From the NCBI GenBank assembly GCA_030077755.1, contig JAQJZZ010000010.1, forward strand, positions 1,612,001 through 1,676,000: 64,000 bases of DNA, read 5' to 3'. A model generated the notes under the pieces. That model saw only the letters and a list, made by a program, of their open reading frames with translations. It had not been told where the DNA came from and did no database searches. This DNA comes from Filosporella fistucella (taxonomy: Eukaryota; Ascomycota; Leotiomycetes; Helotiales). Made by a program: the position numbers and the translations under genes. Shown here one piece after another: positions 7,923-19,288 of this stretch; the first letter of the stretch is position 1; each line of letters starts with the position of its first letter.

Positions 7923-7941
7923 TTTTCCGGGTGACGGAAAA
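7923..7941. promoter_or_regulatory. Palindromic TTTTCCG site upstream of the MFS gene
   Basis: TTTTCCG, five bases, CGGAAAA: a perfect inverted repeat about 350 bp upstream of the transporter start. CCG...CGG half-site pairs with a fixed spacer are the usual binding form of Zn2Cys6 dimers. The same 7-mer recurs in the other cluster promoters. Confidence 0.5.
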
Positions 7942-8240
7942 GCTTGGGGGTAGTCCTTTACGATGATCCTCGCACAGAAGTAGCAGGTACTCCGGGATCA
8001 GATACATGACCACAGGATATGTATTCCAAGATTGATATCGGTAATGTGGACGGCAAGTATGAAGAAAAATAGCAAGGTTTATACACATGCAGCAACCGAT
8101 GAGGAGGATCAGCCATGGCGTCTTGCACTTTCTGTGCGTCACTCACACCACGCGCGACACGTACGCCACGCGCATCACATAGTATAATGGGAAATGGTAA
8201 TTAAAAAGAGGATATATGTATTCTATGTATCAACAATAAA

Positions 8241-11200
8241 CTACCACTCCTTTCGCCAACTATCTACAAATTTCTTCACAAGGCCACTTCCAATAACATC
8301 ATAGCCATTTCGAATAGCTTCGCATTTCTTCCCCGTCTCTTCTGTCAAGAAAACAAGGCCCTTTCTGCCCGGTTTATCGTTATCGTATTTCTCAGAGAAG
8401 AAATCGAGCAATTTGATTGTTGGATTCTTTTCTGGGTTGGCGTCGCTCTCACGCAAACGTCGAACCCACTCTCTTTGAGAGACTGCTTCGAAATCTAATC
8501 CGGCATCTCTAAGTGCAGGAAGCAAATCGTCGGTCCAGTGAAAGAGACGAGAGTTTTGTACATGATATACGATTGACTGATCTTTGGAGGTAACGTTTGT
8601 GTGTGGAGAAGGCTTGATGTCAGCACACTCCAATACTGCAGAAGCGACGACATCGACTGGAAGCCACGACGGCGTCTAAATAACAATTAGCCTTTTGTTA
8701 GGTATTAAAACTTGTGGGACACTCACTTCTTCCAGCATTGGTAACGCTCCAATAGTCACTGCACTTCGTATCATGAGGGAGATTGCCTCCGTGCTATTCC
8801 ACACGCCGATTTGCGTGTCGCCAACTATTTGTCCGACTCTCAGTACTTTCGCTGTCATTCCAGTTTGACTTGCAGCGGCTTTCAAAATTGTCTCCGTTAC
8901 CAATTTCGATCTCGCATATCCCATACTTTGAGCATGCGACAGGTCATTAATGTAAGTCTCCTCGATGACAGCAGGAAGTGGTGTTCCCGCTGCTGCTGAA
9001 ATTGAGGAGCAGAAAAAGAGCTTCGCAGGGTTCGGTGTTGCCACACTCAAGCATAAATTCAGAAGGTTAAATGTGCCCTTGATGTGCTGTTGCTCAAAAC
9101 TGCGGACACCAAGATTGAAATTTACAGCCCAGGCAGAATGGATTACAGTGGTTAAACTTTTTTGAAGTTCATCGACAGTGACTGCATCAAGTCCGAGGTC
9201 TTCGCGGCTTAGATCGGAAGGGAAGCATCGTATTTTTGCACTTCCCGAAGAAACGTCGAGCTGCTTGGTTTGCAAAGATGAAAAAACCCTCTCCTCTGCA
9301 TGGGCTTGCGAAGAGGCACGGACAAGGCAGTAGATAGTTTTGACATTTTCCATTGCCACAAGTTGGGCTAGGATGTGCACTCCGAGTGAGCCGGTGGTAC
9401 CAGTGAGCAACTTTGAAGGTAAGCTAATGAAAGTAAATGAGCGACGAAACACTTACAACCACTTCTCCTTCGACCTCCGCGCTGCCCCGAACGTGCGGAG
9501 AGAAATTAGAATACTTCTGTATCAATTCTTCCATCACTTCTATCTCGCTTTGCTGGACGGCCTCCTCGCCAGTGCGAACGGAGTACAAATGGTCAGCCAG
9601 TGCCGAGACATTAGGGTATTCGAAAACAACATTTTGACCTAGAATGTTATTGTTCAGATCGAGTTGCCTCATCATGAGCCCTCGTGCTGTAATTGCCTGC
9701 AAGCTATCCACGCCGGCTTCGAAGAAGTCCATCGAAGCGTGGAGATTCTCAAAACCCAGCCTTTCTTTGAAGATCTTCAGCAAGTAGAACTCAAGCTCCG
9801 GACGATCTAGCTGGAGACGCTGCTCAGATGAATCATCCTCAGGAGCCTCAAAGCGAGTGTAGATGGCGTCAATGACTGGCTCAAACTTCCTGTAGAACGC
9901 AGCTCGGATCATAGTCCCCTTGTCCGTGCAGGGGTACTCTGTATCGTAATCTAGAATCTCGACCATTTCCCTCGATATCTGGCTGAAAGATTCCACTCTT
10001 GAATTTGCAGCAATAACCACAGGCCATAGTGACTCAAACAAGTCGGACTTGCTCATTCCTAATGACTTCTCACTAGGTATAATGATAAGACCTGGAAATG
10101 CTCTTCCAATCCCAAAAATGCAAGCTTCTCGAACCAGCTCATGCTCCCTTACTTGATGCTCAAATGGAATGGGGAGCACCTTTTCGCCATTCACAAGAGT
10201 AACGCGATCGTCAAGGCGTCCGAGGTATTTCCAAGCATTTGGAATGGTGGGATGAGGACTGAAAAGGTCACTAGTCGCGAATGAATTCGGAGGATCGTCG
10301 GAATTGGATACGACTTTGGACGGCAAGCCATCAAGCACGATGCACTCGAACGTGTTCGGTGCTCGTTGTGCCATATGGATAAACTTCTGGCTTGATGGCA
10401 GCGGTCTCACGTAGTTCCAAGCCTTGTCTTCTACTGGTCGAAACGAAGTCATTAATTGACCAATTTCAGTACTATAATGAGTTAGTCATGTCCATGCAAC
10501 GGGTAAGGGGGAAATATGTATAAACGGCAGGATTCAACATACGCTCCATAATGACCAACGAGATACACGCCTGCCTCTACCAATCTGTCTCCGAGGTCAT
10601 CTGGACAACTGCTACCACCAAATAGGACGAGCTTGCACTTCCTGAGTACCTCGATGCCAGCTTGTGTCTCTGCCAAAAGCTTCAATGCATAGGGCACGCC
10701 ATGGAAACTTTCTGGTTGTACTGCTGTCATAGCTTCAATCAAGTTTGTCCCAGATAAGGGAAGGTTTGCATTAAACAAGGATATCTCCTTGCCTGAGTAT
10801 ACAGCCCTGAAGAAAGAAGAAAGTCCATGGTTGTGGTAAAGTGGCAGTGTCAGGAAGGCACGATGGCCAAAACTGCTAGAATAGTTCATCAAGCATGCTT
10901 TTTGAGTTTGAAAGATTGGCTTTGGAAGGCCAGTCGAACCGGACGAGTGAATGATGAAAGCTATGCGATCAGAGGAAGATGCACTGCCAGCATTTCGCGG
11001 GAACCGAGGTGCTAGAGCTGGTTGGATGTCGTAATCAGATTGGGATAGTAATGGAATGCGGGCTATGCTGATCTGAGACTGGATGGCATCCACTTGTTTG
11101 CTCAGATTCTCCGAGCAAATAACGCGGCTGCATTTTGTTTTTTGCAGCAAAGAGACGTAGGCTTCAGTCGCGAGTCGATTGGAAAGTAGCAGTACTGCAA

Positions 11201-11617
11201 ACCCCAAGCGGTGTAATGCAAATATGCACGCAATATAGTCTAGATTGGAAGGTGCCAGAAGGGCGATGACTTCTGATTCTTCGGAGGACTTGAAACAGAT
11301 TAAAATTGATCAAAATTTTGGTATTCGCAGGGAAATACCTCTGAGCTAAGTCCCAAAGCACGATATTTCTCTGCTCCATGGTCCGCGAATCTATCAAGAT
11401 CTTGGGCGGTGTAATGGACGTAGTCCGCTCGCCCCCTGGGCGTCGATGGGTAACTGACCAGAGGGACGTTTGGAATTGTTTGGCTTCGGTTGTATAGTAG
11501 ATCATCTACTGTATACAAATATTCTGAGGTGAGAGCAATGTTATCACGAGATTGGCCGCTGAGCTTTGACTGGCTGACAGCCACAGCCCTAGACGTTGTG
11601 GTGAGAGTCGTTGACAT
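8241..11617 (-). CDS. NRPS-like carboxylate reductase (A-T-R)
   Basis: Five exons (11617-11339, 11288-10543, 10471-9457, 9410-8727, 8675-8241), phases closing to 1052 aa. Residues about 40-560 form an adenylation domain with the A3 core HSSGSTGLPKP near 207, GHYGATE near 339-344 and YLGRLDDRV. The carrier domain has FFEAGVDSLQ with the phosphopantetheine Ser near 598. From about 681 a thioester-reductase domain follows: LLTGTTGSLG nucleotide-binding loop and the YxxxK pair near 845/849 in SMGYARSK. No condensation domain. Enzymes with this layout activate a carboxylic acid with ATP, tether it and release it as aldehyde or alcohol using NADPH. The substrate cannot be read from sequence. It sits between the transporter and the regulator, inside an apparent sugar-acid cluster. 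It could instead form a small secondary-metabolite pair with the transporter. The promoter carries three CGGAAAA sites. Confidence 0.88.
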
Positions 11618-17888: not shown

Positions 17889-19158
17889 TCAAGCAGCTTT
17901 CAATTTTCTCTGTGCAGCTTTCCAATCCTCAACGCTCTTCTTCAAGCTTTCCTCACTAACCTCATCAAAGATATCAACTCCTAGGCGAGCTGGGAAATTG
18001 TATCTGTGATGCTTGTCCAAAGCCGAGATCTTCTCAAACACCTCTTGGGGAAGTTCAAAATCTACAAAGAGTCAGACTGTCGTCCAATATGAACGTATTG
18101 GAATTGAGAACATACCATCAAAATTGTCCTTGATTCTGCTTGCAGTTACACTTTTGGGCAGTACAACTGTACCTCTCTGAACAGCCCAGCTGATGAGGAC
18201 TTGTGCTGGCTGCTTGTTCAATTGCTTTGCTAGCTCAATGACGGTAGGATCATCTACGGCTCTTGGAAGGTTGTAAATGTTGTTCCCAAGCGGACTGTAA
18301 GCTGCAACCACAATATTCTGTTGACATTAGTCATCGACTTAATAGCTCTTTTCAGCACTACTCACATTCTTCTTCGACCATTCTAACAATTTAGGTTGCT
18401 GTAAATAAGCATGTGCCTCAATCTGATTGACAGCTGGTGGAATCTTGGCCCTATTATATTTCAGTCATGTCATTTATCCCATCTTGAATCATAACTCACG
18501 TCTGAAGCAATTTCTCAATTCTAGCTTGCGTGAAGTTGCTCACTCCAATACTGCGAACTTTACCTTTGCTGACAAGTCCCTCCATTGCCCGCCAGGTATC
18601 AGCATCCGGAACATCAATGACATGAATTTGTTCCGTTTCCGGATTCACTGGGAAAGGCACATTTGCTTTGGGAAAAGCTACTGGCCAGTGAATCTAGATA
18701 TATCAGTAATTTTGACTTGGGAAGTGGTTGACTACTTACAAGATAAAGATCAAGGTAATCTGTTTGAAGGTCTTTCAGACTCTTATCTAGAGCTTCTTCT
18801 ACATCTTCTGGTTTGTGATGTGTGTTCCACAACTTGCCAGTAATCTGTTCAGTATCAGCAAATATGTTTCCCAGTAAGTTTCAAATTCCTCTTACGAAGA
18901 TATCCTTCCTGTCGACTCCAGATGCCTTGATCCCCTCTCCGACTTCTGATTCGTTACCGTAGACAGAAGCAGCATCAATATGCCGATATCCAATTTTCAA
19001 CGCCGCTGCAACAGCCTCCTTGACCTCATTGGGACCAGATTGCTGTTGGATATCAGAGAAGTCACATGAATTGACCAATATCGACTCACCCATGTCCCTA
19101 GCCCAACTGCCGGAATGCTATACCCAGAACTCAACTTAAATGATCGATTCAATGCCAT
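17889..19158 (-). CDS. Aldo-keto reductase (glyceraldehyde/glycerol dehydrogenase type)
   Basis: Seven exons (19158-19090, 19042-18896, 18844-18740, 18693-18500, 18450-18366, 18317-18116, 18061-17889), introns 46-54 bp, closing to 324 aa. The AKR tetrad is visible: Asp and Tyr in HIDAASVYGNE, Lys in ITGKLWNTHH, His in IHWPVAFP. SIGVSNFTQARIEKLL, NQIEAHAYLQQ and VLPKSVTASRIKDNFDDFELP complete the NADPH-dependent barrel. The sequence resembles Gcy1/GaaD-type enzymes that reduce glyceraldehyde to glycerol, which would finish the pathway after the aldolase step. It could instead act at the entry step on a uronic acid or sugar. It is transcribed divergently from the aldolase gene over a shared promoter with two CTTTTCCGG copies. 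Confidence 0.9.
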
Positions 19159-19250
19159 TGTGCTTTGTATGGGAAAATACTGAACAATATTGTAACATTT
19201 AAATCTATAAAATGAAGTTTTATCTCTTCGATATACTTCACAATATTGCA

Positions 19251-19288
19251 TCCGGCCACTTTTCCGGCTTGAAGGGCTTTTCCGGCCA
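19251..19288. promoter_or_regulatory. Paired CTTTTCCGG sites in the AKR/aldolase divergent promoter
   Basis: CTTTTCCGG at 19259-19267 and again at 19277-19285, exactly 18 bp apart, set within a TCCGGCCA direct repeat (19251-19258 and 19281-19288). The 324-bp region separates two divergent starts (19158 and 19483), so one site pair could serve both genes. Confidence 0.55.

Follow-up and report, generated by a model that had tools for sequence, protein, structure and literature searches.

What controls the six neighbouring genes at positions 5645-20531 of the window, the 64,000-bp stretch of Filosporella fistucella DNA analysed here (GenBank assembly GCA_030077755.1, contig JAQJZZ010000010.1, positions 1,612,001 to 1,676,000, forward strand), and does the heptamer TTTTCCG that recurs in front of them mark a common control site? 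The genes encode a transporter of the major facilitator superfamily (MFS), an adenylate-forming reductase, a Zn2Cys6 regulator, a dehydratase, an aldo-keto reductase (AKR) and a DHDPS-family aldolase, and are read here as a D-galactonate utilisation cluster with predicted enzyme activities. The placement of TTTTCCG points to all six being switched on together through one shared site, and we consider it probable that the Zn2Cys6 protein encoded within the cluster controls it as a local regulon by reading the complementary form, CGGAAAA.

A preliminary description of the window had listed ten copies of TTTTCCG or its complement, and on re-count all ten are exact matches, distributed over every promoter as claimed (MFS, two; reductase, three; regulator, one; dehydratase, two; the promoter shared by AKR and aldolase, two). 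The three exact 9-mers CTTTTCCGG that it reported are likewise present, at 17717, 19259 and 19277, and the window holds none besides. By the gene models of this analysis each of the ten sites lies 100-361 bp upstream of a start codon, and no further TTTTCCG falls between 5.6 and 20.5 kb of the window. The whole window contains 15 copies, against a mean of 9.05 in shuffles, and ten of the 15 are these cluster sites; the other five are found at 3450, 43626, 45133, 51663 and 59191, four of them within open frames of at least 100 aa. The base 5' of the heptamer is C in six sites, G in three and T in one, while the base 3' is G in five, T in three and A in two. Because the same five promoters hold three further copies of TTTCCG, the true site may be somewhat looser than TTTTCCG.

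The expectation of about eight copies per 64 kb given in the preliminary description is a fair one, the genome count (5439 in 45,769,958 bp, 19 contigs) corresponding to 7.6. At this rate the five promoters, 2413 bp in total with the MFS and regulator promoters set at about 600 bp in this analysis, should hold 0.29 copies rather than ten (Poisson P 8e-13; 6e-9 after correction for 8192 words and 1e-4 when the number of 2.4-kb segments genome-wide is allowed for as well, under a model that ignores clustering of sites). Both the motif and the promoters, the latter taken from the preliminary description, had been chosen after the data were seen, so that a ranking of all 7-mers and a whole-genome search for site pairs are the fairer tests. 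When 7-mers were ranked by their counts in the promoters versus the rest of the window, strands merged, TTTTCCG came first of 1920 (10 versus 5, Poisson 1e-13) and was the only one found in all five promoters; the second-ranked word, poly-A, is confined to a single promoter. Nor is the motif equally dense in unrelated non-coding DNA, roughly approximated as sequence outside any open frame of at least 100 aa: one TTTTCCG occurs in 28,991 bp, made up of 14,126 bp of the window outside these promoters and 14,865 bp from five sampled genome stretches. Similarly, there is one TTTTCCG in total in 12 loci (of which two overlap) near non-cluster paralogues of the DHDPS or dehydratase genes.

The search for two copies within 30 bp of each other returned 27 direct pairs from the whole genome, 10 of which derive from one repeat family and four from the 11-kb span of the cluster, together with 10 inverted pairs, one of which is in the same span. 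Thus 5 of 37 close pairs fall within the cluster span, where 0.009 would be expected. The reversed word, used as a control, is commoner in the genome (6819 versus 5439) and gives a similar number of direct pairs (26 versus 27) and fewer rows for inverted pairs (12 versus 20, each place counted twice). Since the direct pairs of the reversed word are about as numerous, pairs of TTTTCCG are not generally enriched in the genome and it is their place that is unusual. Taken together, the 7-mer ranking, the genome rate and the pair searches led to the rejection of chance as the source of the motif.

Outside the cluster and the repeat family there are 22 pairs, 17 inside an open frame of at least 100 aa and five outside. 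In ten neighbouring frames from 7 of these 22 loci no sugar-acid enzyme was recognised by Pfam that would argue for a genome-wide regulon. One stretch (C12:1505291-1508326, L030) has five TTTTCCG in 3 kb, two of them between a gene for a protein with a galactose-binding F5/8-type domain and a carboxylesterase gene; nothing firm follows from this, and the locus is a possible distal regulon member or a product of chance. The dispersed repeat family carries TTTTCCGGCACGxAGGGTTTTCCG or close variants (L011, L013, L014, L021-L026 and L033), and BLAST among its copies points to an internal tandem repeat of about 126 bp per unit.

The company that the regulator keeps in other fungi was traced through homologues of the regulator (120 listed of 457 found), the reductase and the aldolase. 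Fusion with the dehydratase is seen in the gene models of three of the 120 listed regulator homologues (Lachnellula occidentalis, Cadophora sp. and Lindgomyces ingoldianus); the dehydratase part comes first, in agreement with the order and strand in the window. Among the matches listed, consecutive or near locus tags link cluster genes in six species: regulator and reductase are adjacent in Ciborinia camelliae (NHQ30_001287/001286) and Verticillium dahliae (VD0004_g7020/g7021); Pestalotiopsis fici has the aldolase, reductase and regulator as PFICI_08543, PFICI_08544 and PFICI_08546; Stylonectria has the reductase, regulator and aldolase as g730, g734 and g737; Venturia inaequalis has the aldolase and regulator as EG328_010445 and EG328_010447; and Fusarium nematophilum has the aldolase and reductase as 012733 and 012736. 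Shared contigs were recognised by identical exact contig sizes, with species names available for 113 of 120 regulator, 115 of 120 reductase and 104 of 120 aldolase rows. Among the matches listed, regulator and reductase have 20 contigs in common, regulator and aldolase 28, reductase and aldolase 21, and all three 10 (49 contigs overall); 11 of the 49 are under 200 kb, and a contig of 37,299 bp in Lachnellula suecica holds all three genes. With classes assigned from the species names, we take the gene set to span Leotiomycetes, Dothideomycetes and Sordariomycetes.

That a Zn2Cys6 factor such as the clustered regulator reads the site, as proposed in the preliminary description, is plausible from the CCG/CGG core of the motif combined with the domains of the protein; the binding itself is inferred. 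In the spliced model the zinc cluster CDRCKRKKTRCSGRQPCILCTNAGLSC fits CX2CX6CX5-12CX2CX6-8C (PF00172, 32.5 bits, cut-off 21) and is accompanied by a Fungal_trans middle domain (PF04082, 110 bits, cut-off 23). Linker conservation was assessed in the 64 of 120 listed homologues that fit the zinc-cluster pattern, which excluded the linker, the rest being truncated models or divergent. The Y, R and G of a YxRG motif are kept in 64/64; of the longer form AYTRGRxP, 89% have the R directly after YxRG and 92% the P that comes two positions later. An RGR close to a P resembles the core of an AT-hook, and the linker is for this reason proposed to lie on the A/T tract beside CGG. The clustered regulator would bind CGGAAAA half-sites, its zinc cluster reading CGG and its conserved basic linker contacting the A/T tract from the minor groove. 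The pairs are direct or inverted and neighbouring sites are offset by 12 (inverted), 14, 28, 31 and 18 bp, which together with the RGR linker favours recognition of half-sites, probably single or flexibly paired rather than bound by one fixed dimer. The signal would be a sugar acid or keto-deoxy acid of the pathway, upon which the regulator would turn on the whole set: the MFS transporter for uptake, the dehydratase acting on D-galactonate, the aldolase that would split the keto-deoxy acid into pyruvate and D-glyceraldehyde, the AKR that would reduce the glyceraldehyde, and also the adenylate-forming reductase.

The earlier proposal of one regulon with an autoregulated activator divides into parts of different strength. 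One regulon is well supported, given the k-mer ranking, the scarcity of pairs in the genome, the single copy in 29 kb of non-coding DNA and the linkage of the regulator in other fungi. Autoregulation is hinted at by one site in the regulator promoter, and the word activator derives from the kind of protein.

The gene models on which the pathway assignment is based were assembled by joining exons by hand (Table 1). Against NF010624, the model for galactonate dehydratase, the dehydratase reaches 521 bits (cut-off 311); it is the sole genome match above that cut-off, and has as its best solved relative 3rr1, a putative D-galactonate dehydratase. The first 420 aa of the transporter match PF07690 with 125 bits, and the closest NCBIfam model for this piece is the D-galactonate transporter subfamily TIGR00893 (199 bits, below the cut-off of 395). 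All of the best NCBIfam models for the AKR are below their cut-offs, and no NCBIfam equivalog model matched the aldolase above its cut-off. The closest named homologues of the aldolase among the matches listed come from Acephala macrosclerotiorum (84%) and then Mollisia scopiformis (79%), both of which we take to be Helotiales. The dehydratase, aldolase and AKR would constitute a nonphosphorylated route from D-galactonate by way of 2-keto-3-deoxy-D-galactonate to pyruvate and D-glyceraldehyde and then to glycerol, the last step being proposed from membership of the AKR family. Among the aldolase paralogues compared (two C4 stretches left out), identity to the cluster aldolase is about 47-53% for the nearest and about 37% or less for the rest. 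The nearest one lies at C9:1758305-1759142 on the same contig, about 126 kb off, and may be the galacturonate-route enzyme, L-threo-3-deoxyhexulosonate aldolase. The lactonase profile PF08450 has 11 matching stretches in the genome.

Table 1. Genes of the predicted D-galactonate cluster and TTTTCCG sites in their promoters (window positions)
Feature	Position	Strand	Description
MFS transporter	5645..7574	-	hand-joined exons; C-terminal exons uncertain
Adenylate-forming reductase (A-T-R, 'NRPS-like'), 1052 aa model	8241..11617	-	adenylation, carrier and reductase domains
Zn2Cys6 regulator, 781 aa model	12151..14886	-	zinc cluster CDRCKRKKTRCSGRQPCILCTNAGLSC, linker AAYTRGRLP, Fungal_trans
D-galactonate dehydratase (enolase superfamily), 381 aa	16298..17533	-	NF010624
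Aldo-keto reductase, 324 aa	17889..19158	-	candidate glyceraldehyde reductase (inferred)
DHDPS-family aldolase, 331 aa	19483..20531	+	candidate 2-keto-3-deoxy-D-galactonate aldolase
TTTTCCG-N5-CGGAAAA inverted pair	7923..7941		349-361 bp upstream of MFS start
Three TTTTCCG direct copies (11917, 11931, 11959)	11917..11965	-	300-342 bp upstream of reductase start
Single TTTTCCG	14986..14992	-	100 bp upstream of regulator start
Two TTTTCCG direct copies	17687..17724	+	154-185 bp upstream of dehydratase start
Two TTTTCCG, both CTTTTCCGG	19260..19284	+	promoter common to the divergent AKR and aldolase genes

Motifs of known regulators were compared with the same five promoters. One full GaaR motif is present, TCCACCAAT in the MFS promoter (position 7772), against 0.08 expected across all five promoters; the full form being present in one of the five, GaaR was rejected as the explanation of all of them. 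Its core CCNCCAA exceeds expectation, so GaaR may add input. The five promoters contain no RhaR/PDR-1 site (CGG-N11-CCG) and no XlnR motif, and FUR1 CCGACGG is absent from the whole window (3.15 expected). The looser in-silico RhaR motif of A. niger, TG[CAG][GTA]GGG, is found four times against 2.7 expected, AmyR CGG-N8-[CA]GG once against 1.0, and CLR-2 CGG-N11-CGG once against 0.5. Among the motifs of GaaR, RhaR/PDR-1, AmyR, CLR-1, CLR-2, XlnR and FUR1 only the GaaR core and full motif exceed expectation, and none accounts for all five promoters.

Several observations weigh against a local regulon under the clustered regulator. The sites of the MFS and reductase promoters are 300-361 bp away from the start codons and the spacing from site to site is irregular. 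The regulator promoter has a single site in 600 bp, which chance gives in about 7% of cases at the genome rate, and the GaaR core CCNCCAA is present four times in three of the five promoters against 1.6 expected. As for the enzymes, the transporter and AKR models remain below cut-off and the aldolase has no equivalog above it. Shared contigs of megabase size show the same contig rather than adjacency, and sharing is incomplete: by species counts made by hand from the three homologue listings (matches listed), regulator and reductase share a contig in 20/32 species present in both of their listings, regulator and aldolase in 28/34, and reductase and aldolase in 21/24. Some of these misses reflect different assemblies, as in Verticillium dahliae, where the tags are adjacent but two contig sizes are recorded. 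In all four Aspergillus species common to the regulator and reductase listings (A. keveii, A. granulosus, A. karnatakaensis and A. heterothallicus) regulator and reductase are on separate contigs, and linkage is thus wide but not universal.

A different factor encoded elsewhere, another sugar-responsive Zn2Cys6 protein, could also read TTTTCCG, with the clustered regulator reading another site. The genome does hold further proteins related to the regulator: at E up to 1e-5 there are 42 matching stretches, 36 of them outside the window and at most 50% identical. The concentration of site pairs at the locus and the near-absence of the motif from sampled non-coding DNA suit a local regulator instead, and with the published motifs compared above failing to cover the five promoters we regard this alternative as unlikely. 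The locus might also consist of two units: a D-galactonate catabolic one made up of dehydratase, AKR and aldolase, and beside it a small cluster for secondary metabolism comprising reductase, regulator and MFS. The motif that they have in common would then be due to chance or to a common general factor. This type of reductase is usually filed under secondary metabolism and several of its homologues are so named; 1.4 kb separates the dehydratase gene from the regulator start, and the separate contigs in the four Aspergillus species fit the same division. AKRs and transporters do also occur in secondary-metabolite clusters. Here the A-T-R enzyme has as its neighbours a sugar-acid dehydratase, an aldolase, an AKR and a transporter. 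A division in two is nevertheless quite improbable when the motif is present in all five promoters, when dehydratase and regulator adjoin in other fungi (the fused models), and when aldolase, reductase and regulator are neighbours in Pestalotiopsis fici and near each other in Stylonectria.

In the last alternative the cluster duplicates the D-galacturonate (gaa/lga) pathway and is controlled by GaaR. An AKR, a dehydratase and a DHDPS-family aldolase are indeed the enzyme set of that pathway, the identity of the nearest compared aldolase paralogue and the naming of some aldolase homologues as L-threo-3-deoxy-hexylosonate aldolase agree with it, and the full GaaR motif at 7772 and the excess of its core lie in the expected direction. 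The dehydratase, however, is far above the D-galactonate dehydratase cut-off (in a result that included no L-galactonate dehydratase model and no comparison with a fungal reference), and four of the five promoters are without the full GaaR motif, so that such a copy is very improbable. Returning to a local regulon in which the clustered regulator reads CGGAAAA, an extension of it would make the 'NRPS-like' reductase an enzyme of primary metabolism that reduces an aldonic or keto-deoxy acid of this sugar-acid pathway with ATP and NADPH. Together with the pathway it would be controlled by a zinc-cluster factor recognising CGGAAAA half-sites singly, through its cluster and an RGR minor-groove linker; this remains speculative and, as a whole, rather doubtful.

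The fungal D-galactonate route dates from work on A. terreus in 1991 (cited in PMC11219438), and an A. niger galactonate dehydratase and aldolase have been used in Myceliophthora engineering (PMC8113861). The predicted pathway resembles the nonphosphorylated De Ley-Doudoroff-type pathway described there for A. terreus and A. niger, in which D-galactonate dehydratase is followed by an aldolase yielding pyruvate and D-glyceraldehyde (PMC11219438, PMC9781776, PMC8113861). It differs in that the genes here are clustered with those for a regulator, a transporter and an adenylate-forming reductase, whereas the relevant passages of these three papers name no cluster or regulator. In the titles and abstract openings surveyed (most subscription journals being outside the survey) fungal D-galactonate use is not linked to any named regulator, motif or gene cluster, and the excerpts of PMC13158570, PMC6941272, PMC12774596 and PMC7824268 hold nothing on this cluster. 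The arrangement is also like the GaaR regulon of Aspergillus niger and Botrytis cinerea, where a Zn2Cys6 activator is associated with an AKR/dehydratase/DHDPS-aldolase pathway, but the GaaR motif is TCCNCCAAT as quoted in PMC5468973, a form found in full in one promoter here, and the dehydratase scores as a D-galactonate dehydratase. RhaR/PDR-1 (L-rhamnose, pectin) and FUR1 (L-fucose) are likewise pathway-specific Zn2Cys6 factors for sugar-acid routes; their sites as quoted (TCGG-N11-CCGA, PMC5469009; CCGACGG, PMC12370193) are absent from the five promoters, a distinction made by motif rather than by regulator sequence.

The source annotations call several regulator homologues 'Activator of stress genes 1' after yeast Asg1, a name carried by similarity, whereas the role proposed here derives from gene company. 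A CCGGAA-like site is what we presume for yeast Asg1; it was not found in the literature looked at.

If the local regulon is correct, the locus offers a concrete regulator and DNA site, both predicted, for fungal D-galactonate use. It would also provide a candidate gene for the aldolase step, since the sugar-metabolism mapping of PMC9781776 calls the enzymes catalysing the penultimate step, which in its order is the aldolase step, 'still elusive'; this description is not undisputed because PMC8113861 names an A. niger aldolase. Finally, a widespread orphan adenylate-forming reductase is tied to a defined catabolic context, and given this context its substrate can be sought among sugar acids and not among aryl or amino acids alone.

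Two further features of the promoters were observed. The five promoters have 17 copies of the CreA-type site SYGGRG (PMC5468973) where the window would predict 6.8, an excess that would suit glucose repression, but the promoters are rich in C runs. The MFS promoter contains a hairpin at 7772-7888 with no second copy found in the genome that would mark it as a mobile element; its 46-nt arms are 91% complementary and 25 nt apart (about -79 kcal/mol as RNA), and the left arm starts with the full GaaR-type TCCACCAAT.

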